Below, piece by piece: positions 7,573 to 63,328 of a DNA stretch of 64,000 bases. The position numbers were made by a program, and so were the translations under genes. The number at the start of each line of letters is the position of its first letter. The stretch's first letter is position 1. A model generated the notes under the pieces. That model saw only the letters and a program-made list of their open reading frames with translations. It made no database searches and was not told where the DNA came from. The stretch spans positions 6,386,001 to 6,450,000 of the forward strand of contig OY783223.1 of NCBI GenBank assembly GCA_963678705.1, written 5' to 3'. This stretch comes from Panorpa germanica (lineage: Eukaryota > Arthropoda > Insecta > Mecoptera > Panorpidae).

Positions 7573-9414
7573 AATAAATTTAATAAACCCACTGAGATTT
7601 TTTGTGTATTAGTGTCTTACATTTAAAGCACAACTCAAATAGCTGCACGATGCAATAAAGTTAGTTCCGCTTTATTGGACTTTTTAATGAATTATTTTAT
7701 AATTTATTACATTATTACAACATGGTTCTATTTTATATTAATGCTGCAATGAAATATTGCACCAGTGGAAACGCATTCTTGTTATCATTCATTCTTACAT
7801 ATTTTCATTCACATTTATAAAATTTTCTCCAATAATTTCGTTTCAAATTTAATCAATAGTATACTTTTAAGTTTTTAAAATTGTCTTAAAAAGTTAGCAC
7901 AGAAATAAACCTTTTATATTTATACTAAGTATTCTAGTGCATTAATTTAACGCAATAAAAGATTGGCAGCACTTACTAGCTGTTTATTGTTTTTTAATAT
8001 AAAAACTACAACCATAGAAAAGTGTAATTCTAGCGTAAAATTGTATATACTGAAATTGGTGTTGCTTTATTCGATATATGAATAAAATTTAATTGATTCT
8101 TGCTGCTTAAATAATGCATTTTCTTTTAGTTTAGATTTTAACACAATTTTTAGCTTGTTAAATTAATGACAGGTTGCTGAACTCATAATTATTATTATCA
8201 CTGTAAGTGGTAATGTTAAATAACTTTAGCGATAACTATGGGTTCAGCAACTGGCCCATGAGGGCCCTTATAAGCCTAATGGTGTAATATATATTATATA
8301 AGGAAAAAACTGTATTAAGAACTTCAGAGCTTATATACTGTAGCACATAAATTGTATGCCTTAACTTTTAACCTAGTTCAATTGTTAAAAATCAATGTGT
8401 TAATTTCTACTGTATAACAGGTTGCAGATTTTTCAGGCGCATTTAAATTACTAGTTAAGCATTATAATCAGTGCCGCATCAATCTTAAAATTTGCTGTTA
8501 ATCACAATTCTTAGAATGAAAAAGATAATGCCAGGAGCCAAGGCTTAATAATCCAGAGCTGATTACAATCATAAACTTTTCAGCTTTATAAATATCTTGG
8601 TGCATATATTATATATTCATTTAAATCTATTTTTAAAAATAAATATATTTTATTCTTATGTTATTATCTTATAACTAATAGTGAAACACGGCCTGAGGTT
8701 TCAAGAGGTAGATTTTGTCATTATTAAACAATTGTCATATTTGCAATTGTTTATTTTTAATGTTTAACTCAATAAAAACATATAATTATAATTATTATAT
8801 TATAAAAATTACCAAACATTTATAATTTTGATTCCTTAAATTTTTATTTTTATAACTATATATATATCTTAACTAATTTTAATTAATTCTTTTTTTTTTT
8901 TGACATGCCTAAATAGTTTAATTTTGATTTACTTATTAAATTTATTTATTAAACACAAATATGTCAAAAAATTTCTTACATACGATATAAAACAGAGATT
9001 GAAATTGGATTATTCAGTTAGTTCATTTAAATTAAGTGGTAGCAAAGAATGGCTGCAACAATTATCACCTACTTCATTATCTAAAGATTTTACTCAGAAC
9101 AGAATCTTAATATTAAATAAATAAAGTAAGCGTAATGTATTGCATAAGCTCCAGGCGTACTACTATTGAAAATATCACAAATAAATTGTTGCGAATTGTT
9201 TTTCGATTCTATTTTCTTGAAATAATGACTCAGGCCTCTCACCAGGGATCAAACTGTAGAAAAGGGCTTACCGTAAATTAATTTCACAGTATGATATTAT
9301 TAGGGAGAGTTGAAACAAAACAACGAATCTTTGAAATAAGGGCGAGGAGGTGCCTGTAATATTATGAGACCGACCCTGATTATTATCATAAAAATGTAAG
9401 AGTCTGTATATCTA
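7573..9414. other. AT-rich intergenic DNA, one unexplained open frame
   Basis: Mostly featureless AT-rich DNA. One frame on the plus strand (about 8926-9124) stays open for some 65 codons and ends at a stop after a segment reading SKEWLQQLSPTSLSKDFTQN. It is preceded by a T-rich tract and AATAG, which would fit a splice acceptor. I recognise no family and found no partner exon. Confidence 0.35.
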
Positions 9415-11179: not shown

Positions 11180-12631
<1,452 letters not shown>

Positions 12632-19602: not shown

Positions 19603-22600
19603 TTATTTAGCCCGATCAGATGTATCTTTATTGTCGTCCTTTTCGTCAGATGGCGAATCTGGATAGGGTAGTATCATTGACGCTATTTCGTGAAAATAAA
19701 CAGCTGATGTTTGAAGAGTATCTCTTTCCCATTCTCCCAAAGGTTGCTTTGCTATCTGCTGCACGCCGTGTGCCCCAATTATACAAGGCAAGGACATAAA
19801 GACGTCCTTGTTGATGGCATGGCGACAACCCTGAAATTATTGTAAGAATCATCTGCTTATCTATGTTTGTTTTATGGGGTTTTCTCAGTGCCGCATTAAG
19901 CCAGCCCCGTCGGGGACTCTACCAAAAATATTATTGTAATTTCATTATATTTGTAGCTGTCTTGCCACAGCGAGTGCTTGTGCATTACTTTTTCAATTCA
20001 TAATTCTCTGGACCTGGTGGTATTTTCGTAATGTATTTTATGAAAAATAATACAGTTTTTACTTTGGTTTAAACTTTTTTTTAAATAACACAAATGTAAT
20101 AATAAATTTTAAAAATATCTCACGCGCCTGTGCTGCTCTAATGCTAGATCAGAAGAAAAATATTTAAACAAAATTTTACAAGGTGAACATTTTCTGTTTT
20201 ACTCGCGGGGCCCGTAGCATTTGCTACTTCTGCTGTAAGGCTAATGCGGCTCTGGGTTTTATCTGTGGACGTACTTTGATGTATGTACTTAAAGTAAAGC
20301 ATTCTTGTGTGTTGTGTAGCACTGCTTTAGCTACTTGTGCTAAAATGACGCCTGGTGCCCAACACGAGGGCTTGTTGTTCTTGATGCACCGAATTTGTTG
20401 CTCTCTGCGAAAGAAAATAAATTTAAAATTGTCAGTAGGATATATGGTAACTATTGAAAGTAGGATGTATTGGAGTTGTTTCGCATTAGCATACTGATCA
20501 TGGAACAAACTTCTACTTTATTGTTCATCAATAATAACAGAAAATAAAGGCGATTATGATTAGTTCAAGAGAACCTTGCAGATTTACGGGTTTGTCTAAG
20601 TAAATTACAAATTTTATTCGATTTATTATTTTTAATCGATTACGTGTTTTCTTACAATATTCGAAATTTTAAATTTGTCTAATAAGTTAATTTCTTAAAA
20701 GAAGAATTACATTTTCTTTATTTTATTTGATGTAATTACTTTCCTTATGCTCTAAAATAAAGAACTGCTTAATTACATTTTAAATAACTAGGCACATTTC
20801 GCTATTACGCGACCTTTTTTAATTTCATGGACATTTTCTTCTAAACAATTTTGTTGGCCTTTCTGAAAATTTTTGATGCAGTTATGTTCGTTATGATTTA
20901 AAATAAAAAACTGCATCATTACATTTTAAATAACTAGACACGTCTGGCTTTTATGCGACCTTTTTTAAATTCATGGACTACTTTTTCTAAAATATTTTTT
21001 TTGGATTTTTGGAAAATTTTTGATGCAGTTATGTTCGTTATGATTTAAAATAAAAAACTGCTTCATTTATTACATTTTAAATTACTAGACACGTCTGGCT
21101 TTTATGTGACTTTTTTTAAATTCATGGACATTTTTTTCTTAAATTTTTTTTTTGTTTTCTTGAAATTTTTTGATGCAGTTATGTTCGTTATGATTTAAAA
21201 TAAAAAACTGCATCATTACATTTTAAATAACTAGACACGTCTGGCTTTTATGCGACCTTTTTTAATTTCATGGACTATTTTTTCTAAAATATTTTTTTTT
21301 GTTTTTTTGAAATTTTTTAATGCAGTTATGTTCGTTATGATTTAAAATAAAAAACTGCATCATTACATTTTAAATAACTAGACACGTCTGGCTTTTATGC
21401 GACCTTTTTTAAATTCATGGACTATTTTTTCTAAAATATTTTTTTTTGTTTTTTTGAAATTTTTTAATGCAGTTATGTTCGTTATGATTTAAAATAAAAA
21501 ACTGCATCATTACATTTTAAATAACTAGACACGTCTGGCTTTTATGCGACCTTTTTTAAATTCATGGACTATTTTTTCTAAAATATTTTTTTTTGTTTTT
21601 TTGAAATTTTTTGATGCAGTTATGTTCGTTATGATTTAAAATAAAAAACTGCATCATTACATTTTAAATAACTAGACACGTCTGGCTTTTATGCGACCTT
21701 TTTTAAATTCATGGACTATTTTTTCTAAAATATTTTTTTTTGTTTTTTTTGAAATTTTTTAATGCAGTTATGTTCGTTATGATTTAAAATAAAAAACTGC
21801 ATCATTACATTTTAAATAACTAGACACGTCTGGCTTTTATGCAACCTTTTTTAAATTCATGGACTATTTTTTCTAAAATATTTTTTTTTGTTTTTTTGAA
21901 ATTTTTTAATGCAGTTATGTTCGTTATGATTTAAAATAAAAAACTGCATCATTACATTTTAAATGACTAGACACGTCTGGCTTTTATGCGACTTTTTTTA
22001 AATTCATGGACTATTTTTTCTAAAATATTTTTTTTTGTTTTTTTGAAATTTTTTAATGCAGTTATGTTCGTTATGATTTAAAATAAAAAACTGCATCATT
22101 ACATTTTAAATAACTAGACACGTCTGGCTTTTATGCGACTTTTTTTAAATTCATGGACGTTTTTTTCTAAAATTTTTTTTTGGATTTTTGGAAATTTTTT
22201 GATGCAGTTATGTTCGGTATGCTTTAAAATAAAAAACTGCTTCATTACATTTCAAATAACTAAACGTGTCTGCCTTTTATGCGACTTTTTAAGATTCATA
22301 TTTCTGAATTTTCTTTTTATTTTTTAGGCCAGAAACGTCTAGTTATTTAAAATGTAATGATGCAGTTTTTTATTTTAAAGCATAACGAACATAACTGCAT
22401 CAAAAAAATTTAAAAAATCGAAAAAAAAATTTTTAGAAAAAAAAGTCCATGAATTTAAAAAAGGTCGCATAAAAGACAAATGTGTCTAGGTATTTAAAAT
22501 GTAATGAAGCAGTTTTTTATTTTAAAGCATAACGAACATAACTGCATCAAAAAAATTTAAAAAATCGAAAAAAAAATTTTTAGAAAAAAAAGTCCATGAA

Positions 22601-25570
22601 TTTAAAAAAGGTCGCATAAAAGACAAATGTGTCTAGGTATTTAAAATGTAATGAAGCAGTTTTTTATTTTAAAGCATAACGAACATAACTGCATCAAAAA
22701 AATTTAAAAAATCGAAAAAAAAATTTTTAGAAAAAAAAGTCCATGAATTTAAAAAAGGTCGCATAAAAGACAAATGTGTCTAGGTATTTAAAATGTAATG
22801 AAGCAGTTTTTTATTTTAAAGCATAACGAACATAACTGCATCAAAAAATTTAAAAAAATCGAAAAAAAAATTTTTAGAAAAAAAAGTCCATGAATTTAAA
22901 AAAGGTCGCATAAAAGACAAATGTGCCTAGGTATTTAAAATGTAATGAAGCAGTTTTTTATTTTAAAGCATAACGAACATAACTGCATCAAAAAAATTTA
23001 AAAAATCGAAAAAAAAATGTTTAGAGAAAAAGTCCATGAATTTAAAAAAGGTCGCATAAAAGACAAATGTGCCTAGGTATTTAAAATGTAATGAAGCAGT
23101 TCTTTATTTTAAAGCATAACGAACATAACTGCATCAAAAAAATTTAAAAAATCCAAAAAAAATGTTTAGAAAAAAAGTCCATGAATTTAAAAAAGGTCGC
23201 ATAAAAGACAAATGTGCCTAGGTGTTTAAAATGTAATGAAGCAGTTCTTTATTTTAAAGCATAACGAACATAACTGCATCAAAAAAATTTAAAAAATCGA
23301 AAAAAAAAATGTTTAGAAAAAAAGTCCATGAATTTAAAAAAGGTCGCATAAAAGACAAATGTGCCTAGGTATTTAAAATGTAATGAAGCAGTTTTTTATT
23401 TTAAAGCATAACGAACATAACTGCATCAAAAAAAATTTAAAAATCTAAAAAAGCATTTTTAGAAAAAAAGTCCATGAATTTAAAAAAGGTCGCATAAAAA
23501 CCAGATGTGCCTAGGTATTTAAAATGTAATGATGCAGTTTTCTATTTTAAAGCATAACGAACATAACTGCATCAATATGTTTCAATGAATCTAAAAAAGG
23601 TCGCATGTAATGAAGCAGTTCTTTATTTTAAAGCATAACGAATGTAAACGAAGTGATTTTTTTTAAAGAAGCTCATGAATAAAAAAAAGTTTGTGAAAGT
23701 GGCGGAAAACCGTAGATATTGTAATTTTAACTAAATAATTCATCTACTTAACGTGCAGCGGATATAGATCAATTAAAAAAATACACACATTCGAAATATG
23801 AATTATTTATAATAAACAAATTGTGCAAGACTTCATATTTTAAGACTTTAACTCACACACGTTGTATTGAAACGGGGCGAACATCTATTAAATATAAAAG
23901 GTTACATATATTAAGTATAGTCTCCGTAGAAAATATATGAAGTATATCCTATATGAAAAGCACTAAACGCTTGTAGTTAGTATCCGACAATACGACTTTA
24001 AATTTATAAAGTAATTAATATTATTAGTTACATATTCGCTGCATGGTTTCCCATTTCCAGCCAAACTTCTGGGTCATCCTCGAAGCCAGCCTGTGGATTT
24101 ATATCCTGGATCCTAACTCCTCCAGCTGAGACTCCAGCCCACAGGGGCACTAGAATATAAGGAATATTAACACCTTGCTAAGAGTATGAACAATTTTATA
24201 AAGAACTAGGTACACAACTACTAGAAACAAAAAACACGCGAGTATTCAAATACAACGTTTTGTCAAAATTTCAAGTCAATCGACCGACTACTTTTCGAGT
24301 TTTGCGAACTTACCACTGTTGGGCCCTGTTTCCCCGATAAACATGGCCCTGCAACTGCTGGTGGCGATGCCAACATATTTACCGACGAGAAATTTCAGCC
24401 GTGCAGACGATACACTGGTTCCCAATCCGACGACTCTATGTGAAGCGAATTTATCGTTCACGCATCTCGCTAGTCTGAAGATCACATAAGTCATAACGTC
24501 ATCTGAAATATAGGAATCATTTTTGTTTTTAAATATTTTATCCAGGACTCAAACCAAAATTCCTACTTACAAGGAAACGCTCCATTGATGATAACAGAAT
24601 TAGGACTCCTAAACACTAAATGCGGGATAACATCCTTAAGAATGGTGATGTTTTTGTTGATACTAGCCCTAGATAATTCTTCATCTTCGCTGAGGTTGCT
24701 GTAGTCGGAAGTGACGATGATAACTTTTGACCCTGCTGTGTCACAAACCTGACACGAAGCAAATATCTTCGCGTTATTTAAATAAACATTTGCAGTCTGG
24801 AGGTCCATTATCTCTGCTGATGCTTTCATCTCATCGGTGTCGAAGATAATAATCTCATTAGTTATATTCTGTTATAAAATATGGTAATGAAAATATTACT
24901 TTAAAATAAAGATATACTCTGCCTGATTTGATGCAACACATTGTACACATGTTACTTTGTACGTATGCAATTCAGGCGCTAATTTTAAGTAATTTTTGAT
25001 ATAATCTCACCTGAGCTAAAAGTGTTAAAACTACTGCCATGGCAGAAGCACCTGCTCCTAAAACTGTTACTTTATGACACAGTGGTTGAATTGGGTCAGC
25101 TATCTTAGCTAGCAAAATTTCGGGAGTTGATACATGTGCCATTTTCTGAAATGTTAAAATTTGCGTTCATGTTAACACATTGTCATTAAATTTTTTGTTC
25201 AAACTTACGTTACTATTACTTTCAAAATCGAAAATTTGGCAATACGTACCTTAGGAATGGGGTACCTGGTATTATCCTCATTCAGAACATTTTCATAATT
25301 CTCTTTCTGTCTAAAATAAGCGCAAGGATTTTTCGTTATATTCAAATTGCACGGCCCATTATTTTTAATATTGGGTTTAAACAAAAAATTTCCATCCTTA
25401 TCAAAAAGATCGAATGTTACAAAAGAATTGTTTTGCAATAAATCTGAACATACGACACGCGAGCAGCAGGGTTGGCCGTCCCCTCTGGTTCTGGTATTTG
25501 CTAGATTGGCGTTTGATGAACACGAAGAGCACGAATTTACATCCCCCTGGTTTGCTTTTTTGTTCGACAT
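19603..25570 (-). CDS. LDH-like pseudoenzyme with Cys-rich N-terminal extension (LDH-B)
   Basis: Seven exons: 25250-25570, 25011-25145, 24571-24868, 24314-24502, 24032-24149, 20275-20404 and 19603-19830. Borders are GT-AG, phases agree, total 1419 bases or 472 residues. Residues 1-107 are an extension not found in LDH, with cysteine clusters (CSSCSS, CC). The LDH fold follows: G137-A-G139-A-S-A142 replaces GxGxxG. The catalytic Asp is Ser283, the His is Thr310 (GETGPNS), while Arg286 remains. The C-terminal end keeps VFMSLPC and adds an acidic, Asp/Lys-rich tail. It is unlikely to convert lactate, and a structural, regulatory or ligand-binding role is only inference. Intron 5 (20405-24031) holds a large inverted satellite and intron 6 a hAT MITE. 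It lacks the intron at the AST/D position that LDH-A, -C and -D have. The second exon contains an in-frame ATG at 25142 that could be an alternative start. Confidence 0.88.
19886..20254 (+). mobile_element. hAT-type MITE in LDH-B intron 6
   Basis: The ends CAGTGCCGCATTAAG and CTAATGCGGCTCTG are inverted repeats. The flanks GGTTTTCT (19878-19885) and GGTTTTAT (20255-20262) are a 7-of-8 target duplication. It aligns with the hAT MITE at 9423-9982 outside that copy's nested insertion. Confidence 0.82.
20700..23660. repeat. Inverted tandem satellite of about 147-bp units in LDH-B intron 5
   Basis: About ten or eleven units lie head to tail from about 20700 to 22330. About nine units in the opposite direction run from about 22331 to 23660. 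A unit is marked by GCAGTTATGTTCGTTATG, then AAAACTGCATCATTACATTT, TAACTAGACACGTCTGG, TGCGACC and TTCATGGAC. Within each unit TGATGCAGTT and AACTGCATCA form a small stem. Inner units of the left arm are nearly identical, pointing to recent homogenisation. The outermost units of both arms share AGGCACATTT where inner ones have AGACAC. The open frame at 22133-22327 is part of it. Transcribed as part of LDH-B pre-mRNA it could fold into a hairpin over 1 kb long. Confidence 0.93.
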
Positions 25571-25866
25571 TTTAATTTCCTTTTTAAATTTTTTTGTAAT
25601 TCATATTTTAATTTTCAATTTTTTAAATTAATACTTTTAAGCGCCATACTGTTTATTTTGAAAGTTGAATCATGGGTAACATGATAATACATGGCAAACG
25701 GAAGTGATGAGTCTATTTTTTGATTTAAATAAATTCTAATAGCGATGCACCTGCATAAGTTTTGATAATTTCAAAATACACATTAAAAAATAATTTAAAT
25801 ATAGGTATTACTTATTGTTTTTATTAAAAAAGAAATTATATTACACAAAAGTAACATTTATTTTTC

Positions 25867-28800
25867 CTAAAGGTTTAATTTTTCAACTGGTTCAACTTCC
25901 TCTTCTTCTTTTTCAGGTCGAGCACTAGGTGCTTCTGGCTCTACAACTTCTGCAGGTAAAACAAGCTGTTTAATTTTCTCCAAGACCATTTCTGCGGAAT
26001 CAGCCATTTTATCTTGTTCTTCTTCGGTCATTACTTCTTTTATCAGATGAGAGACACCGTTGCTGCCCAAAATGCACGGAAGAGACATGAAAACGCCATC
26101 AGAACTACCGTGGCGACAACTCTGAAAATATATTTATTCGACATTAAACTTTTCGCTAATATCTTGTTCGACCTTTTTACACGAATCATTGTTTCCAAGA
26201 TGGCTGCCAATTTGAATTGAGTGAGGTTTTGTGCAAAAAAATTTCTTTTAAATAAAGTATTAGTGTTTATAATAAATAATTTAATTAATAAATATATTAG
26301 TAATAGTGTTGTTATATATAATGCAAGAGTTAAACATCCAGTGAAATTTAAATCTCAACGCTTTGTTCAAATTATAACCTTTAATAGTGCAGTGTACAGC
26401 GTGCGAGACTTGTTGAATTTTGTTTGCAATGAAATAACTACATATGTAATAATATTTGTAAGTTTTTCGTTCGGTTGTTAAGTTTTAGGGCTCCGAGCAA
26501 AGTAAAACATTAAAAACTCTATTTGCTTGCATTCGGTGCAATGACTGACTTAACACATGAGATAGACCTGGTGTTTGGGGCCCATCATAAAATTCATAAA
26601 GTGTTAGTGTAGTGTTAGTGCTTTGTTGACATTCTGCAGCTGCCCTACTACTAATGGTGAGTCATTTTTAAACATTTTATGCTATTGTATCTGCAGCCAA
26701 ATCATTTTTATTTAAATTTGACATTTGTGTACATATTTATTTAGAAATAAGGATCTTACTGCAATGTATGTTGATGCCATAAACATTTCTCTTGTGTTGT
26801 TGATAATGGCATTAATCATAGAGCACATTATAACTGCAGCCCCCCACCTTGAAGTATTACTTTGTTTCTTTTCTCTGATTATATTATCTCTGCAATTTAA
26901 ATTGAGAAAAGTTAGGTTATGACTATGATCATCTAGGTTCAGTAACAAGTTATTAGCTATTTGATTAGAAACATCAGTTACGAGTAGTTTTCCAGCACTT
27001 TAGTCGGTTTTGCAAAAACAGATTTTGTACTAACTATTAGAAATGATTGATTTGTTAATATAGGTTAGTCATTTGCATTTTTCGTTGTAAATCTTTTCTT
27101 CGTTGTAAAACACAGTGGCATTTATGCTTGTCAGATTGTTATGGGTGTTTAGGATCGATTGCTGGATCAGCTAATTGCTTATTATTAAATTTTAATTGAT
27201 TTTATCCTCACATACACCTGTCTACTGTAAAAGAATTTGGTCGAAAAAAAGCTTTACTGCGATTGGAATCATATAAATGTACACACACTCTCCTGATTTA
27301 GAAGTCGACGGAAATTATTATTTATAGTTTTATTATTATTATTCTCCGCTATTCGCTTTCGCAGTATACTCTTAGCCTAAGAAAGAGGCGTTTGAAGCGT
27401 TATTTGGACGAATATTTTACAGTGTACTATGAGAACAATCTTATTGACGTTAAAAAAAACTGTTTTGCATTTATTACGATTCATAGCCGATGAAAATATT
27501 TGAAATTTTGTAATTAAATTAAAGAGATTATTATTAATATTTTCTTTTAATATATTTTTTTCAAATTCTGTAGGAAAATGGTTTTATTAGTGACTTTTAG
27601 AAATATATCTTAGCTCTTATCAGTTGAGTTACATTATTGAGGATTTCTGAACAGCATCCGTCCATTCATCTCCTTCCTCGGTTGCTATTGCTGGATTAGC
27701 GTCCATAAGTCTTGTCCCGCACATAAAAATGCTTGTCCAAATTGGCACTGAAATTAAAATTATATTTTCGCTCAAGTTTTATATGCACTTTTTTCGCCCT
27801 TCAGTCTTTTGCTGCATTACAAAAATGTTTCGTTATTTTAAATTTTGTAAATGTAATAAAGTAGTAGAGATACCAGAGTTTATGAGGGTCTGTTGTAACT
27901 GATTAAATTATATTTGTTTCGGAATATTTGTTTAGGATTAGGTTTCATTTGTTGTCTGGTTTATAATTATATAATAATTGATTTTTATAAATATCGTATA
28001 TAAAGCGGAACAATATTATGGAATCAATCTTTAAGAAAAAGATGTTTTATAGGTACTTATGGACTAAAATAGTTCTTTTCATAATTTTTTGCATGGTTTT
28101 TGGAACAAAATATACTTCTTTTTTAATCTTACATGGTTCTTTTAAATATATTTTAAGTTGTGAAACACATATTCAATTTTACCATATGCAACATGCACTT
28201 TTTTACACGATTTCTTTTCTCGCAGATAAGGTGTATGTACAAATACTTACAACACCTTATTTATTTGAAACTACCTAAATTTGTTCCCTCCATTCCTGAC
28301 ATGGCCACCACACAATCCGATTCCGAACATTTAAATTTTCTTGCCATGTAATTTCGAAAATAAGCGGCACTAGTATTAGTGCCAACACCTACAATGCGAT
28401 GGGGTTCGAAATTTGTGTATTTCCAAATAGCATACTCCATGAGGTCTCCTAAAAATATAATTGTGTTTGGTAATTGAATCAATTCATGCTTAAAAGGAGT
28501 TAGGACAGAACGGGAGTTACTAAAACTAAGACTGAATACAAAATTACAAAAGTAGCAGCACTAAATTCACTGTAACTCGTAAAGTAATAGTCGAAATGTC
28601 GTGAAATTTTCACACATCTCGTTTGAAGGTTGGTACAATCTAAAAATCAAATGGATTTACCATGGATCCTAGCGTAAAAAGTCGCGTAGGTTTTTTTGTG
28701 AAATTAAAATATGTTGAATAATACTGTTTCAAAAAAAAGGCATTTCACAGGATTCAAATAACTTTAAAAGTAGTGGGGTATTTTACCTGATTTAGCATAA

Positions 28801-31718
28801 TTCAAAATAATGCTATTTTCGGATGCTGCTTTTTTAAGGTATTCTAAGGATTCCTTCATTAGTGCAACATTCGAATTCGTAAGGTTTGAATCGATATAAG
28901 ACCCTCCGCTGTTCGCCATTCCTCTCAAATCGGAGGTATAAACGTAAACTTTAGAATTATCTGTATCCGCTAAATCTGTAAAAAAATAAAACTTTGTTCA
29001 AGTTTTCTTAATGAATATATTGCTTTAAGGGGTTATATACAGTTTATGAGGCCCAAAAAAAGCGATTTTTTACAAAAGAAATTCCTGATAAGACTTTTAA
29101 TTGTATTAATGTAAACTTTTAGCTGTATTGTAAAAATTTTGCGCTCTTCTCAAAAAAGCCATTTTGCGGTGACCACGATATCTCTGGACTGGATCATCTA
29201 AAATGAAAACACCAAACGGATTTCGTTAAAGTAATGTATAATCTAGTAATTAATCGAAGAAATAAGCAAAATACATTTCGATCTCAAAATAAAAATCGAT
29301 TTTTTATCAAAATTTTGGCATTAAATTGTTTATAAAAACAATATTTATCAGTGAGAAAAAGCCTTCGATTAATTACTAGAGAATATACTTAAGAAGCTTG
29401 TGTTAAAATTTAAGACTGATCGGTTCAGTCGTTTCCGAAAAATCTTAGTCAGAGTTTTCAGAAAAAGAGTATACAATTTTTTTTCAACTTACATAACTTC
29501 GAAAATAATCGCCGGATTGTCTTGAAATTTTCTGTGTGTGTACTTAAATATATGTACATTACGAAAATGAAGAAAAAAAATAGATTTTTTGAAAATATTA
29601 ACTGCATATAACCCCTTAAATAAAATCTTTCATGACCATTTCTTACCATGCGTTGAAATAATCTTAGCATGGAGGGGGTAATATGGAGAAGCTGCTATCA
29701 AGTCCATTGTCAAAGCAGTTAAATTGTTGTAAGATGCTGGCCCGTCGTATAAAACTATTTCTCCTGTTACTCCCTAATTAAATACAGGAGAGGCATTTAC
29801 TTTCACAGGTCGTTTTAATCATATAACACATTAACAATTTTAGCACAATGAATAATGTCAACATGGAATAACTTTAAGGAGGTACAGGACGTTAACGTAA
29901 ATGATGAAAACGTTGTGAAATTTGGAGGGTCGATACAAATAGTTAAAATACATGCTGTCTCAAAATTTTAGAGACCTAGGGTTCATAGTTTTCTTTTTAT
30001 ACATGATTAAAAATAGTCATTTTCCATACAAATCATAATTTTTAGCTCAATTTCACCACATAATATAACTTTTAACTATAAAAAATGGTGACATGGCTTT
30101 CAAAAACTAGGTGTATATAAAATAATCTCTTCTGAAACTATTGCAAAAAGAAAATTATCAAAAGGATACCTATTTACGAAAATATTTAAATAAAACCTTT
30201 AAGAAACAGTAAATGTAGGTTATAAGCCGGCAACGTTGCAAATGCCAATTATGCCAATAAATATTATATAAAATATAACAATTTATTTGTCGAAGAACCA
30301 AATCACGCATGCGTCAACACACGTAAATTTGCAGCGTTGCAAAATTTATTATTCCCTTTTCAAAATATTTAATTTGTATTTAAATTAATATAAATTTTGA
30401 TATTAATTATAGGTAATTTTTAATTTATTAAACTATTATATGCATAAGAAATCATTTTAACAAGCAAAAAACAATTTAATAGGGAATTGAAAAATTCATT
30501 TTCAAAGGTACAGTCCCAATATTTGCTCGTCCCTCATGTACTTCGTATTTTGCATTTCGTATTACCGAGAGATAAACTTTTTGCATTGACAGTACGTCAT
30601 GTACCTCCTTAAAAGTATTTTGTTGGAGATTTTGGGAAGAATCGTGTAATACGTATAATAATATATTAGATTCGAATGTTTCTAAGTAAAATTGTTTGTC
30701 GACAATAGTGTGACATTCAATAAAATAAATTTAAAATTAAAATAAATCCGGCAACGCCGCTTGCTAAATTATCTCGATAAGTATTGCATAAATAATTGGA
30801 ATTTTAAATCTTTGATAGTACTAGTATTGCAACGTTGCCAGATCTCTGCAACAATGTTCCAACTGCGTTTAAATTAATCTTAAGGTGTTACGTTTGATAA
30901 TAATAAGAAAGCCAGAGCTCCAGCGCATTTTCCAGATCCAAATATCGTCACTTTAAAACAGGGTGAGAACATCGATAGGTTACAAACTTGCGAGAGTATA
31001 ACTTTAGCCATGTCCAACGGCTGACCAGCGATGGATGCGTCCTGAAATTTTTGTAGTTATTTGTTAGGATCTGGAGGATTCTTGTTGATTTTATTCGTTA
31101 GAATATTGCTCTAAAAAGAGGAGAGTAAATTATAATTGTCTATAAACACTATATTTGTCGAGACATGGTGTTACATTGGGTCTTTGAGGGAAAGACACGC
31201 AGGGTTAATAATAGCAGTAGTTTTATGTGGTGTAGTGGTTAATGCGACTGCTTACAATGCGTAAAACTTCCGAGTTTGAATCCGAAAGACAAAACATTAC
31301 ATTACGATACATTGGACGTATATCATATAAGCCTATTCTACATTACATAAATATTAATATTATTACATAATATCTCCTTGTGTAATAAAAAAATAACAGC
31401 AATTGCAATTTCAAGCGTGCTACAAGCCAATTCCAAGGTTCATTTTCTACCTAAGATGGTCTACATTTTTTTAAATCATACCTTCGAAAATCCATATTGT
31501 GAGTTATCTGCATGAAAGTGTGAATTTGCTTTCGCCCTTGGCTTTATAGGACGATTGGGAGGCGCAACTTTACTTGTATCTGCTTTCGGTTTTACAGTGG
31601 TTTGTTCACTTTGGCGTTCAAAATCAAAATTCCCTAAATAAACACTATCTGCGTCCTCAAAATCATCTTCCTCTTCCTCAATAATTGTTTCTTCGCTGTC
31701 AAAACTATGATTCGACAT
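25867..31718 (-). CDS. LDH-like pseudoenzyme with acidic N- and C-terminal tails (LDH-C)
   Basis: Eight exons: 31482-31718, 30892-31041, 29647-29773, 28787-28975, 28275-28448, 27633-27747, 26760-26889 and 25867-26121. Total 1377 bases or 458 residues, all GT-AG and in phase. Residues 1-79 are an extension with an acidic run (EEEEDDFED) and a later basic/Pro stretch. The start chosen is the ATG giving MSNHSFDSEE, since LDH-B also starts MSN. The nucleotide motif is G114-S-G116-K-C-A119. The catalytic Asp is Ser261, Arg is Tyr264 and His is Glu288 (GMEGTNL), so it cannot work as a normal LDH. The last exon keeps VFMSLPC and GVSHLI, then ends in a Glu-rich tail (EKEEEEVEPVEK). It sits about 290 bp downstream of LDH-D and about 300 bp upstream of LDH-B. 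Its function is unknown. Confidence 0.87.
28538..28665 (-). repeat. Fragment of the poly-G element family in LDH-C intron 4
   Basis: The words AAATTTTCACA and TCGTTTGAAGGTTGGTAC match, inverted, the region around CCTTCAAACGATA in the copies at 3964-4482 and 6053-6640. Similar fragments lie at about 45150-45240 and 51010-51130. Confidence 0.5.
29029..29615. mobile_element. TTAA-flanked MITE (GGGGTTATATACAGTT ends) in LDH-C intron 3
   Basis: The left end GGGGTTATATACAGTT and the right end AACTGCATATAACCCC are near-perfect inverted repeats. TTAA lies on both sides (29025-29028 and 29616-29619), the target duplication typical of piggyBac-type elements. About 587 bp. The open frame at 29458-29670 spans its right end and is not a gene. 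Confidence 0.85.
29878..30608. mobile_element. TTAA-flanked MITE (GGAGGTACAGGACGT ends) in LDH-C intron 2
   Basis: The ends GGAGGTACAGGACGT and ACGTCATGTACCTCC are inverted repeats flanked by TTAA at 29874-29877 and 30609-30612. About 731 bp, non-coding. A different family from the TTAA element at 29029-29615. Confidence 0.83.
31222..31335 (+). mobile_element. tRNA-derived SINE head in LDH-C intron 1
   Basis: TGTAGTGGTTAATGCGACTG resembles an RNA polymerase III box A. GAGTTTGAATCC at 31272-31283, about 40 bases downstream, resembles box B. The sequence does not fold as a full tRNA (I could not pair an acceptor stem), so a SINE head is more likely. A possible relative is near 39962-40030 (GTGTAGCACAGTAGTTAGAC, then TACTTGAATTC). 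Confidence 0.5.
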
Positions 31719-32007
31719 ATTTTTAAAAAAATAACGCCAAAAGAAGAAGATCAATAGCAAAATCAATGCAAATTATTTTTCAAATTTTTTTTTATTATTT
31801 TATACTATTTTTGTTCAAAACATTTTTTTTGTTACATAAATTTTTTGTTTTTTATTTTTTGTGACGACATCAAAACATTTTAAAACAAAGTAATTTTGAT
31901 TTGAATTTAAAAGTTCTCGCAAAAATATACATATATATAAATTATTAAAAAAATAATGTTTTTTTTTATATATCTTCTTGAATTATTATATTCTCCTATT
32001 TCTCCTT

Positions 32008-35000
32008 CTAAGTTGCATCTAGCGTTTCATCTTCAGTGTCTCCAATATTTGTAGGATCAGTTTTCACTTCGTTGTCATCTTCTATCTTTTTTGTATCACC
32101 TAAGAGATATGCGGGGATGAATTCATCATATGCGTCGTTAATGTCATTCGCTGTTGCATCCATTTTTGCTTTTTCTTCTTCAGATAAATACTGCTTGACT
32201 ACAACGCTAGCACCCCCACTGTTGATGACGCAGGGCAGTGAAATGTATATATCCTTACTGCCCGAATGTGGGCACCCCTAAAATCATAAAACTTTTATTA
32301 TTAATATGGGTAATAATAAGAAGAAATATCTACCCTATTAGATATATATAAATGCCCTGTCAGGCCCTCATAAGGCTCCGATCGGGCAGACGTGAGATGA
32401 AAAACTATTTTTTATTTATTTATTTGCCATAGCCACCATCAAACTTTTTTATACATATTTCACACATTTCTAAATATTTAAATAATTCACTAATTAATTT
32501 TGAACCACTTAACATAAATTTAGTATTAACAGGAAAAGTTTTAATCACATCTAATATTTCACTATTGAATTTTAATCTTTCTAAACTATAATTTATGCAT
32601 TCAAATATAATAAGATCTTAAAGTTCCTTCTTCACCACATTGATATCTATCGTCGGATTTAATTAATATATATTAATTTTGATTCTGATTATAGTTGATA
32701 TAATTTTGCGGGACTCATTTCTAAACCATCTCTTCTTACTTAAATTTGGATGTAACATATAATAATCTCTTCCTTTTAACTGACTTTTGTTAATGAAATC
32801 TGTGTTTCTCAAATTGAAGTTTAATTTTTTGTTGATATTAAAACTTTTTTTTGAAGGTAATTTCACTTTCATCTCAATTTCCAAATTTATTTATTCCTTT
32901 GCCAATTTATCCGCAATTTCATTTCCTCTTATTCACATAAACTTTATGGTATTATTTTTATTTATTATATTGAAATACATCTCCTTAACTTTGCATGTCA
33001 AAATATCATTATTTGATTTGTGATCATTAGAATTTAAATTTTTTAAAACAAATTTAATTTTATTATTGTTCATATTTTCATTAATTTCCAATGCTTTTAA
33101 TATTGCTAATTTTTCACCAGTATAAGAGCAAACTTTGTTATTCAATTAATTAATTTTAACCTAAAGTAAAACCCATTAAAGTTGAGGCCCTCACGTTTTT
33201 TTCCCTAGTAGAACCTTATCATACCTTATAAGTGCCTGATAGTAATATTATCTAAACTGTCTTACCTGAATATAAGTACAAACTGTGAAAACTTCGTTCG
33301 AATTGTGGACAACAGATGTAGTTAGTTGCGCCAGTAGAACAGCAGAAGTATAATGAGATGGTTCATTCCATAAATTGAAGAGTTCCGTTTCCCTAAATTT
33401 TAATTATTATATTTTTTAAACTTTCAACAAAATATTTAGAATTGAAAGTATGTTCTTACATGTAAGCAGCTTTTTGGTGAATATCACTATAGTTCTCTGG
33501 GTCTTCCTCTAATCCGATGTTGATATTAACATCTTGCAATTTGACTCCGCCCACAGAGACGCTTGACCAAATTGGAACTACAATTATAATTATACAGATA
33601 CTCATATAAAATACTTATATAAAATACTCATATAAAATACTTCTAAAGTGGTGCAGCTTACCGCTGTTAATGCTCCCCCTTCCAATACAAAAAGCTTGTG
33701 TTTCCGTAACAGCAACTGCTAATTTTTCCGCTAACAGTTGCCGAAATTTTGAGCACGTCACAGAATTTCCAAGACCTATTATTCGGGAGGCAGAGATTTC
33801 TGGGAAAATGGATTTACCAACGAGATACATGACGTATGTTATTATTTCATCTGCAAAATGGAAACCAGAAGAATAAATAGATCCTGATGGCTGCCCAGGT
33901 AGAACATGGAGTTTCTAGCTAATTCTAAGGTTCATTTTCTACTTCCTATATGAAATTTGTACTGTTAAATTGCGTTACATTTTCTACCTGGGTGATTGTC
34001 TGAGCTTTTCTTTATAAAAAATGGCCACTATTCGTACTTGGTTCTATACAGTTAATAACTACAACTTCCGGTCTGCATTTTGGTAGAATTTTTTCCATCA
34101 AATTTTTAGCTATATCCACATGTTTCTTTGTGACGTCTTTTTGGTCCAAAAAATTCGCTGTTTGTGGAAATGATTTCACATTCTCTGCTTCTTGAGTAAT
34201 AATCAAAACAGTGGTTCCCAAAATATCTTCCACATCTAATGAAAATAAGAAAAAACTTTGCAAGGACATTCTCAAAGTAGATATCTTAAGGAGAAACGAT
34301 ACTTGGCCATTTTTTCTAGCGAAATATAGATGGCGATACTATACAGCAGGTTAAATATTATCAAAAGAATCATGTTTTTTATGTTTAAATCATTTTATGT
34401 AAGTAACTATAAACGCGAATCTAAATCTAAAGCTGCAATTAGTTAGATGAATAACGTATCTACATTTTAAGCTTTCTTCCACTGACTTTTAATGAGTTGG
34501 ATAATTTTTATATGACTGGTAACATTTCTAAGGGTTTTTCATAAATTTTATAACCTTTATTATGGTTCTCAAACTTACGCTTAGGACTTAAAAATATATC
34601 GATTATTCGATAATATCCCAGTCATATAAAAATTGGAATTTAACTAGAAAATATAGCAATATTCATTTTCAAAACTTATTTTTGCAGTTCCAACTCAGTT
34701 TTTTTGATAATTTTTATCCTGCTGTGTAGTATCGCCATCTATATTTCACGAGAAAAAATGGCCAAGTATCGTTTCACCTTAATTTGAAAGTAAAATATAA
34801 ATTATATAAAGAAAAGTCGAAGAAATTGGTCATCGAATGGTGCATTTTAAGTAGCTTAAAGTTGGGTAGTATTTTTTAAGTTACCGTTGGTGAATTTAAC
34901 ATTGGCGGATTTGTTTATAAATGCAGACGCAACACAGAAGTCTGTTTCTTCGGCGTCTAAAGCGTTGGTGTTTGGGTCGTACACATTAACAAAAAATCCG

Positions 35001-35308
35001 AAACCCTGAAAACGTATTGATATCATTACTAAGAGTAACATGACGTCAGAGACTTTAAAACTGCTTTTAAATTTATACATTGACAATATTGTCACTAATT
35101 AAACAGTTGAAGTTGTCATAGACAAATTTATCAATATATAATGCAATTTTATAATATGTGAGGTAAAAAATGTTATACATTATTAAAATACAATTACCAT
35201 GTTCATTAGACTCATAAGACAGGCCATTGCGGTCTCCCCACAACCGACTATCGTTACCTTAGCCGGGCTGCAAACCAATTCTTCTTTATCGATGTTGAAA
35301 TCACTCAT
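32008..35308 (-). CDS. LDH-like pseudoenzyme (LDH-D)
   Basis: Seven coding exons: 35198-35308, 34885-35005, 34038-34235, 33662-33850, 33460-33577, 33266-33392 and 32008-32277. Total 1134 bases or 377 residues with the start MSDFNIDKEE. The frame of the first listed exon stays open upstream to an acceptor at 35345-35346, so a further 5' coding exon, as in LDH-B and -C, is possible but not found. The nucleotide motif is G22-C-G24-E-T-A27. The catalytic Asp is Thr175, Arg is Lys178 and His falls on Gly202 (GRGSINS). The last exon keeps ISLPC and ends in an acidic Asp/Glu/Thr tail of about 40 residues. Exons for the 189- and 118-base blocks have exactly the same lengths as in LDH-B. Intron 7 holds a LINE fragment and intron 3 a TTAA MITE. 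Function unknown. Confidence 0.86.
32290..33165 (-). mobile_element. 5'-truncated LINE with RNase H remnant in LDH-D intron
   Basis: On the minus strand one frame reads TGEKLAILKALE, further on GNEIADKLAKE, and then a downstream segment with IIFECINYSLERLKFNSEIL. The first two are typical of the RNase H domain of I/R1-like non-LTR retrotransposons and the third of their C-terminal region. Several stops and a gap lie between them, so it is dead. The insertion lies between the exons at 33266-33392 and 32008-32277 and in the same orientation as the gene. The frames at 32663-32884 and 32933-33145 are its pieces. Confidence 0.72.
34290..34778. mobile_element. TTAA-flanked fold-back MITE in LDH-D intron 3
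   Basis: Arms of about 65 bp are inverted copies of each other: left GGAGAAACGATACTTGGCCA, right the complement of GGTGAAACGATACTTGGCCA. TTAA flanks both sides (34286-34289 and 34779-34782). Shorter relatives lie at 43182-43553 and 60227-60530, the latter again followed by TTAA. Confidence 0.87.
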
Positions 35309-35344
35309 AAGGTAACACTTAAGGTCTTCTTCTGGATCGCAAAT

Positions 35345-37603
35345 CTGTAACAGAGAGAGAGATGATACAACAGACTGTAGAATAGATGTTAGACAGAGAT
35401 GCTTACGAGTGCGTGCGATGCTACGTCATTTATTACTAACAGCTGAGTTTGGCATCCCTTCAAGTTTTATATTATGATTGTTGTGAAAAAATAAAAGTAA
35501 TATCGATTACTTATTTCTTCTGTGACGTCATACGCAGAGCTAACAGTTATTCGAAAAAACTGAAATTCATTTCCGTCAACACTTTGGATATTTAAATAAA
35601 TAGAAACACCAATATATGAATCTATATTTTAATGAGATCTTCGTGAAGTAGTAAAAAATGGAGAACTTGCTGAAACTTTGTAAATTTGCTCTACGATAGT
35701 CAATAATTAATAAACAAATTAAATAAGGGTAGGTTTCCAAAACTTTTAAGGAAATAATTAGTTTCAGAAATGGAAATTTCACGTACAAGTATATGGGGAT
35801 TCATTAACTTGTGCATTTGAATGAAAATTTCATGTAAGTATCTAATGTATTTAATTGAATATGGTTCAGAAAACATCAAGCTTTCGATTAAAATAATAAA
35901 AATAGTATGTTTCCGAAGTAATAACAAGAATAATTGACATTTTTATAAAAAATATTATCACAATCATCCGTTACTTCCGTTGTTCAAAACACGATGTAAA
36001 ATTTGGCAACGTCGCTTGCTCAGTTAGTGTTGCCACATGAGTGTTTTATTATTTTTAATCAATTGAATGTCTAAAAAAATTTAGTAATTACATTTTTTTT
36101 AAATTTATAGTGTAAATATTATCTATAAATTTTAAAATTATTTGTCATATGCTAGGCATTTAAAAGCTACAAAAAATGAATTTGTTATAAACTTTTATAT
36201 TGTTCTTTTTCGAGTTCGAGTTTTTACCGATTTATACGGTCCAATAAGATGAAGGAATGGCATTTAAGTTCAAAATATCTGGTCAACCCAATGTGACACC
36301 AAATAAAATACTAGGATAATTAAATTGCAAATTAAAAAATATACAATTTTTTTAATTTTACAGTAAATTACAAATGTATTAAAAAACATTTTAAATAACG
36401 AGAAAGGATTAAAAGCAAATTAAATTAATTAGGATGAAATTATATGCCGGCCAGAACAAATTACCGCGTTAAATAGATTTAGCTTGTAATTTGATAAAAC
36501 TTTAAGTTTAAATCAGATTCTGGATGATCTCGCTTTAGTCAACCTCGTGATTAATTTAAATAGGTAATTGTTAACTCCAGTGCCGGATTAAGTTTGCGCA
36601 GAGCCTCTAGCGAAGATACGATTGTAATTTCATTATATTTGTAGGTGCCTTGTTACAACGAGTGCATATTAAAGTCGTTTCTTATATACTTATCATAAGG
36701 TGTAACAAGGAATGCACATAATTCAGGCGCCAAAAATGTTATATTTATAAAGACATGAGTTTGAAAGCCATATCTTCGTAAATTTATACTTTAAATTTAA
36801 CTATACGTAAATTTAAACTATATATGTGTAAAGAAATTATATTTTTTTAGTTAGTCGTCTGTCGGTAAAACAGTGACCGTTCAATGAAAATATATACTTA
36901 TGAACGCAATAGATGTTACTGTAGGAATAGTTGATATTTGGAGTCGACTGAACCCACGTTTTTAGTTAGTTAGTCAGTCAGATAAAAAGGAATTGACAAT
37001 TTATGGTAAATAATAAACTTTAATTATCATTTCTTTTAATTTCAGGTATGATTTAAGTTAAACAATGTAATTATTAAAATATGTATGTAAATTACCTAAA
37101 TAAACTTTAAATTTCAGAAGCAACAATTTTTCAATTCCTAATAAGACTGGAGACATTGTCTTATACATACTACAACAATTTGTTTAGTAAAAAAATCTTG
37201 GTGTCAGTATAAATATAGACAATAAGAATTGAAGTCGGAAATGAACATTACATTAATTGCTTGGCACTACACAATCATTTTTTGTTCCTTCTCACCGTAG
37301 TGTACAACTGAACAATCATAAAATATTTTAGGCGTTTAATTTGAGAAGCCGGTATTACCCTCATTACCAGCCCGGTGAAAAGAAAGCCGGTAATTACAGC
37401 TTTAGATAATGACAAGACTTATTCACCTTTGCTATGAGACTGTAATATTCTAACAATGATACAACTGAATACTCTGAAACACCTGTAATCCTTTAAATTG
37501 TTGAATGGAGCCCGTCCCGCTTGCCCGAACAAATTATCCCAATTATTAAAAATGACTCTAGAAATAAAGATACACCTTTATTAAAAAAGTGAAGCAATTG
37601 TTG
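35345..37603. other. Upstream flank of LDH-D, mostly unique AT-rich DNA
   Basis: I looked for a 5' coding exon of LDH-D and found none I can defend. A partial hAT-type MITE starts at 36578 (CAGTGCCGGATTAAG) and matches the family up to about 36667; its right end is not clear. The open frames at 35576-35788 and 35700-35927 are AT-rich and match nothing known. Confidence 0.45.

Positions 37604-61126: not shown

Positions 61127-63328
<2,202 letters not shown>

Follow-up and report, generated by a model that had tools for sequence, protein, structure and literature searches.

A tandem group of putative lactate dehydrogenase pseudoenzyme genes in Panorpa germanica

Why would an insect genome keep three full-length lactate dehydrogenase (LDH) genes in which the residues of LDH catalysis are replaced? 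The question is posed by a stretch of 64,000 nucleotides of the Panorpa germanica genome (assembly GCA_963678705.1, contig OY783223.1, positions 6,386,001 to 6,450,000 of the forward strand; hereafter the window, to which coordinates refer unless another contig is named). We identified four L-LDH genes in the window, all on the minus strand and in one orientation, using gene models that were rebuilt from the sequence and then checked by script for splice sites, phases and frames. LDH-A (12631..11180; six exons, 331 residues) is a canonical LDH. LDH-B (25570..19603; seven exons, six introns, 472 residues), LDH-C (31718..25867; eight exons, seven introns, 458 residues) and LDH-D (35308..32008; seven exons as modelled, six introns, 377 residues) are predicted pseudoenzymes, each with an acidic C-terminal tail. 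Together the four genes comprise 28 exons; all 24 introns are GT-AG, the phases are consistent and a stop codon closes each frame. A preliminary description of this DNA had given the three paralogues the span 19603..35308, correct splice sites and open frames, which proved exact; LDH-A lies outside that span. On balance we favour reading LDH-B, -C and -D as working genes for LDH-fold pseudoenzymes with a non-catalytic structural or scaffold function, perhaps in sperm.

Active-site residues of the three paralogues

LDH-B, -C and -D were aligned with 17 canonical rows (LDH-A, three solved LDHs and 13 nameless LDHs from the protein database), and seven positions that in LDH serve substrate contact or chemistry (Q99, R105, N137, D165, R168, H192 and T247, in LDH-A numbering) were compared. 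H192 is replaced by Thr, Glu and Gly in LDH-B, -C and -D, respectively, D165 by Ser, Ser and Thr, and R168 is Arg, Tyr and Lys, so that all residue calls of the preliminary description at these positions were right. N137 is Phe, Lys and Glu, and T247 has changed only mildly, to Ser, in each copy. None of the three keeps Q99 or R105 either, the residue opposite these two loop positions depending on the alignment (two alignments differ for LDH-C and -D). LDH-B thus keeps one of the seven residues, its R168 being the sole substrate residue left, while LDH-C and LDH-D keep none (0/7 each). The replaced Asp and His positions of LDH-B lie in exon 4 (24314..24502, minus strand; SSAR and GETG), and the replaced Asp, Arg and His positions of the other two copies in LDH-C exon 5 (28275..28448, minus strand; SAAY and GMEG) and LDH-D exon 4 (33662..33850, minus strand; TCSK and GRGS).

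Both LDH Pfam domains (PF00056 and PF02866) score above the gathering cut-off in LDH-B, -C and -D, and the best solved-structure matches of all three are named L-lactate dehydrogenase. At the other positions that are invariant in the four animal-type LDHs, 79 (LDH-B), 59 (LDH-C) and 63 (LDH-D) of 149 residues are kept, and 29 of all 156 positions (the seven active-site positions and these 149) are kept in the three copies alike. In the nicotinamide adenine dinucleotide (NAD) motif GxGxxG the first two Gly are kept and the third (G31) is Ala in LDH-B, -C and -D (GxGxxA), and D51 of the NAD pocket is kept in each; binding of the cofactor may persist. The NCBIfam model TIGR01771 (L-LDH equivalog, cut-off 303.55) gives 394.3 bits for LDH-A and 181.0, 121.9 and 127.3 bits for LDH-B, -C and -D. 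Their identity to LDH-A is 28 to 36%, compared with 61% between LDH-A and 2v65, a fish LDH. Read from the alignment, the three would form a real pseudoenzyme family from which catalysis is absent.

Retention and common origin of the paralogues

A first codon-position test overstated the signal of conservation among the paralogues. Because a shuffled-codon control exposed this alignment bias, each gene was aligned alone to the canonical LDHs, the pairs were compared via LDH-A positions and a shift control was applied. Amino acid identity is 0.335 (B-C), 0.287 (B-D) and 0.248 (C-D) against shifted means of about 0.06, and second codon positions are identical in 0.604, 0.612 and 0.538 of cases (same order of pairs below), the shifted values not exceeding 0.343. 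The figures for third positions are 0.293, 0.248 and 0.355. Codons for a residue that both members have in common agree in 0.352, 0.253 and 0.423 of cases; 0.377, 0.388 and 0.401 would be expected from codon usage, and the agreement is close to that expectation or below it. At positions where neither member of a pair matches LDH-A, the replacing residue is identical at frequencies of 0.288, 0.229 and 0.210, compared with about 0.06, and at eight positions LDH-B, -C and -D share a residue that the 17 canonical rows lack (in 5000 shuffles the mean was 0.24 and the maximum 4). The frames of the three genes are unbroken and their introns retained, which is not the picture of a processed or decaying pseudogene; the chance of the frames staying open at the stop frequency of the introns is 10^-12.7 to 10^-15.9, a rough figure as the exons had been chosen as open pieces. 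Decay is unlikely because synonymous sites look saturated while amino acids are conserved, a pattern best read as long-term constraint on the protein.

In a tree of 20 rows, LDH-B, -C and -D form one clade (support 100/99), and this clade and the four animal-type LDHs are split from the bacterial-like rows (99/99). The clade is placed beside all four active LDHs and not next to LDH-A, at a weak node (67/89). Gene structure can be set beside the tree. LDH-B, -C and -D each have a phase-1 intron at the place of LDH-A position 139 and a phase-2 intron at 234 to 236, neither of which occurs in LDH-A itself, and the LDH-A intron at 122 (phase 0) is missing from the three paralogues. All four genes have the introns at 41, 197 and 277, and LDH-A, -C and -D that at 81, so that four introns of LDH-C and LDH-D and three of LDH-B match LDH-A in position and phase. 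The introns of human LDHA are at 42/0, 81/1, 139/1, 197/1, 236/2 and 278/0. By this comparison LDH-C and LDH-D would keep the full old set and LDH-B five of six, LDH-A would be the altered gene, and the split would predate the intron changes of LDH-A. Since the paralogues form one clade and share introns that LDH-A lacks, a shared loss is the more likely, and catalysis was probably lost once, in the common ancestor of LDH-B, -C and -D, before the tandem duplications. The preliminary description had spoken of the same chemistry being lost in three genes; the loss itself stands, and the repeated loss that this wording implied gives way to a probable single one. Its views that the copies are pseudoenzymes and that they were retained and are not decaying are supported by the codon test, the open frames, the residue pattern and the single clade.

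Two bee proteins may extend the picture beyond Panorpa. A protein-database search with LDH-B recovered, as its best matches, sequences from Habropoda laboriosa (E 1.6e-57, 34% identity) and Anthophora plagiata (E 7.7e-57), both Apidae, which are 91% identical to each other, 37% identical to LDH-A and 26 to 33% identical to LDH-B, -C and -D. Their catalytic His is Asn and Asp, N137 is Ala, R105 is Ser and Q99 is also replaced; G31, the NAD-motif Gly that is Ala in LDH-B, -C and -D, is kept, as are D165 and R168. One extra residue, a Cys, precedes the conserved His in the C-terminal half of all five dead rows and of none of the four animal-type LDHs, and Ala at 67, one of the eight residues specific to LDH-B, -C and -D, occurs in both bee proteins. 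In a 13-row tree the bee proteins join LDH-B, -C and -D with moderate support (81/85), the clade of the three again being supported at 100/99. They differ from the Panorpa proteins in having no long acidic tail (15 residues past the last common block) and an N-terminal part shorter than that of LDH-B or LDH-C, and they are known here by database name alone. One insect family of dead LDHs that includes the bee proteins, with the loss occurring in steps, appears likely from these sequence features. The bee proteins are recorded as "L-lactate dehydrogenase A-like 6A", a gene name that overstates proteins without the catalytic His.

Proposed role and alternatives

Under the mechanism that we propose, LDH-B, -C and -D would go back to a single ancient duplicate of the LDH gene of animals, in which the residues for catalysis and substrate binding were replaced, to which an additional first exon and an acidic C-terminal tail were added, and which subsequently expanded by tandem duplication; the apparent bee relative, without the His and with the Asp and Arg, may reflect a stepwise loss. 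The products would serve as folded building blocks or docking subunits without catalysis, a role that seems most likely because the proteins retain the scaffold of LDH and some of its NAD pocket. The proteins are presumably made and a structural role for them is quite likely; expression in the male germline is about an even question. The likeliest site would be the sperm tail, either in the axoneme, as for MDH1A/MDH1B in radial spoke 3, or in the mitochondrial derivative, as for the sperm leucylaminopeptidases (S-Laps).

The S-Laps of Drosophila are an expanded metabolic-enzyme family with replaced catalytic residues, as are LDH-B, -C and -D. In the available part of the source, S-Lap1 and S-Lap6 are without activity and the S-Laps are structural in sperm mitochondria (PMC6388916), and similarly limited text has them form the paracrystalline material of sperm (PMC6388916; PMC11012351). 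They belong to the unrelated M17 peptidase family and have known testis expression, whereas LDH-B, -C and -D are known here from their genes alone. Malate dehydrogenase and LDH are members of the same superfamily. An MDH1A/MDH1B malate dehydrogenase dimer is placed in the head of ciliary radial spoke 3 in excerpts of two papers (PMC11779644, PMC12399478); this is an axonemal dehydrogenase, but of the malate dehydrogenase branch and in mammals, and the excerpt of the latter paper states that Tetrahymena malate dehydrogenases were not found in spoke assays (PMC12399478). Within Drosophila, CG13334 is called another lactate dehydrogenase in one partial text (PMC4772804) and weakly LDH-like in another (PMC7033134), and may be a relative of LDH-B, -C and -D, as a lead only. 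A 2008 survey names several L-LDH copies in Daphnia and a leech and none for insects in the portion of its text available (PMC2570690). Pseudoenzymes as such are common. The listings of our literature searches named no insect LDH pseudoenzyme in sperm and described no retained family of dead L-LDHs in insects.

Several observations weigh against the structural reading or the steps that lead to it. The contrast between active-site and other invariant positions is weak by Fisher test, with p values of 0.059, 0.045 and 0.042 for LDH-B, -C and -D on the animal-type rows and of 0.065, 0.020 and 0.030 when all 17 rows are used, 12 near copies included. The dead status is read from sequence, and R168 of LDH-B and D51 of all three leave room for NAD binding or an altered chemistry. 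In the codon test the C-D third-position identity (0.355) exceeds the shifted maximum (0.320), and direct pair alignment puts the C-D second-position value (0.561) inside the shuffled range (maximum 0.568); the alignment behind the eight shared residues held LDH-B, -C and -D together, which favours matches. The 20-row tree has long branches and a bootstrap that had not settled, 12 of its 13 nameless rows being near copies, and long branches also meet in the 13-row tree, for which topologies with the bee proteins, or with LDH-B, -C and -D, beside the active LDHs were not rejected (approximately unbiased test, p-AU 0.113 and 0.153). The link to sperm is drawn by analogy, and CG13334, if a relative, is expressed in muscle precursor cells according to the part of the paper available (PMC4772804).

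LDH-B, -C and -D could instead act as sensors or regulatory subunits, which bind NAD(H) or a metabolite, or which enter mixed tetramers with LDH-A and tune it. Each copy retains D51 and the first two Gly of its NAD pocket, and LDH-A, the only active-type LDH found, lies 7 kb off on the same strand, but the third Gly of the motif is Ala in each copy and an identity of 28 to 36% to LDH-A would make a common tetramer interface doubtful; we consider such a function unlikely. Enzymes with a changed reaction that proceeds via other residues would account for the kept scaffold, NAD-site Asp and many structural glycines. Such enzymes are improbable here, as His, Asp and Asn are lost in LDH-B, -C and -D, the His and Asn positions differ from copy to copy, and the His position is Asn in one bee protein and Asp in the other, a pattern suggestive of relaxation and not of a new conserved site.

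That the three genes are decaying pseudogenes is very unlikely: their long branches (0.67, 1.59 and 1.52 changes per column) fit decay, but 377 to 472 codons are open, splice sites are intact, amino acids are conserved at synonymous saturation, new residues are shared by the three copies, and the bee relative is 91% identical across two genera. Least probable of all, to the point of being barely credible, is a hidden exon or an assembly error, with an alternative exon that restores the active site. When positions 9000 to 40000 were scanned for motifs on both strands, GEHG and NLDSSR occurred nowhere but in LDH-A, and neither LDH-A nor its catalytic stretch, used as tblastn queries against the window, recovered another copy of the catalytic exons. 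The single EHGN match (35204, minus strand), which could speak for such an exon, is another frame of LDH-D exon 1, out of frame and without LDH-like context. The restored His and Asp that the preliminary description had named as the outcome contrary to its claim were thus sought by motif scan and tblastn, and none convincing was found.

Returning to the structural reading, its most extended version is an ancient insect family of LDH pseudoenzymes, comprising those of Panorpa and the bees, that split off before the intron changes of the enzyme gene, took a structural part in the sperm tail as the LDH equivalent of the malate dehydrogenase dimer of the axoneme, lost first the His and then the Asp and expanded in tandem, and to which CG13334 may belong; this whole sequence of events is put forward tentatively, at less than an even chance. 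The locus would allow the conversion of a core metabolic enzyme into a building block to be studied in a simple case, along with the question whether dehydrogenase folds have been recruited to sperm tails repeatedly. Genes named lactate dehydrogenase by similarity, as in the bee records, would count as enzymes, probably wrongly.

Gene structure, further searches and neighbouring sequence

LDH-D, -C and -B are packed head to tail, and the LDH-A ATG lies 7 kb beyond the LDH-B stop. The gap from the LDH-D stop to the LDH-C ATG (31719..32007, minus strand) is 289 bp, with AATAAA 152 and 212 bases past the stop, and that from the LDH-C stop to the LDH-B ATG (25571..25866, minus strand) is 296 bp, with AATAAA 5, 42 and 210 bases past the stop. 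An N-terminal extension exon encodes 107 residues in LDH-B and 79 in LDH-C; in all, 130 residues, 8 of them Cys, precede the common core in LDH-B, and 107, acidic in character, do so in LDH-C. A Pfam scan of these two N-terminal parts found no domain, and a PDB search with that of LDH-B gave chance-level matches only. Past the last common block, LDH-B, -C and -D have 32, 41 and 46 residues (8, 12 and 15 acidic; 4, 5 and 3 basic), LDH-A 12 residues with one acidic.

LDH-D probably has a further first exon that gives it a 30-residue start. Its frame is open upstream of the ATG chosen in the preliminary description, without an in-frame stop in the 90 bases upstream of that ATG and past an acceptor before 35344, and in LDH-B and LDH-C an additional first exon ends in phase 0 where this acceptor would match. 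The putative first coding exon (35876..35787, minus strand; 30 codons, phase 0) would splice to the acceptor before 35344. Its donor score (6.7) is the sixth of 175 GT sites in 3.6 kb, the acceptor score (6.9) is the joint best among the AG sites scored from 35290 to 36000, and in-frame stops are present upstream of the candidate ATG.

We searched the genome (464 Mb, 249 contigs) for further copies at E up to 1. All matches with LDH-B (16), LDH-D (16) and LDH-C (14) fall in the window, as do 13 of the 14 with LDH-A, the other being a weak match on contig C15 whose sequence resembles cytosolic malate dehydrogenase. Besides LDH-A these matches include no LDH of the active type. No further copy of the B/C/D group is among the whole-genome matches scored, 14 or 15 candidates per search, in which malate dehydrogenases were mostly missed, so that much more diverged copies could escape. 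In the protein database, LDH-D matched 13 nameless LDHs of 304 or 313 residues, taken for prokaryotic, LDH-B matched three nameless proteins besides the two from bees, and LDH-C had no matches; neither LDH-C nor LDH-D recovered a named insect relative there.

UEVLD, in which an LDH domain is joined to a UEV domain, was considered as an identity for the paralogues and rejected. A Pfam scan of LDH-B, -C and -D and of the N-terminal parts of LDH-B and LDH-C found no UEV domain, and the UEVLD structure 2i6t scores 105 with LDH-B and 81 with LDH-C and is not among the best 60 for LDH-D, whereas LDH scores are 242, 137 and 148. The genome has one UEV match, on contig C17. On the minus strand of contig C3 (7638000-7660500) there are at least three malate dehydrogenase-type genes; as judged by eye from the motifs, two keep GGHS, and one copy, with GGQDS and an altered LDVxR motif, has its catalytic His replaced and looks catalytically dead too.

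At 20726-23575, in the fifth intron of LDH-B, a 147-bp satellite forms two arrays with 10.7 and 8.4 copies, which by eye run in opposite orientations. In the sixth intron of LDH-D (32423-33145) short frames look like a degraded transposon; of two that were scanned against Pfam, one had no match and one a sub-threshold match without clear meaning. Outside the mitochondrial contig C249, 19 COX1-like matches were found, 18 with in-frame TGA, which are probably nuclear mitochondrial insertions. The mitochondrial contig itself has the gene order of an insect, with I-Q-M and W-C-Y, which would argue against ditrysian moths and Neuroptera, and a search of four contig ends of 3 kb for telomere motifs gave no match. 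tRNA and Rfam scans of the whole window gave no matches. A near-complete alpha-tubulin frame of 449 residues lies on the plus strand at 61979-63325.

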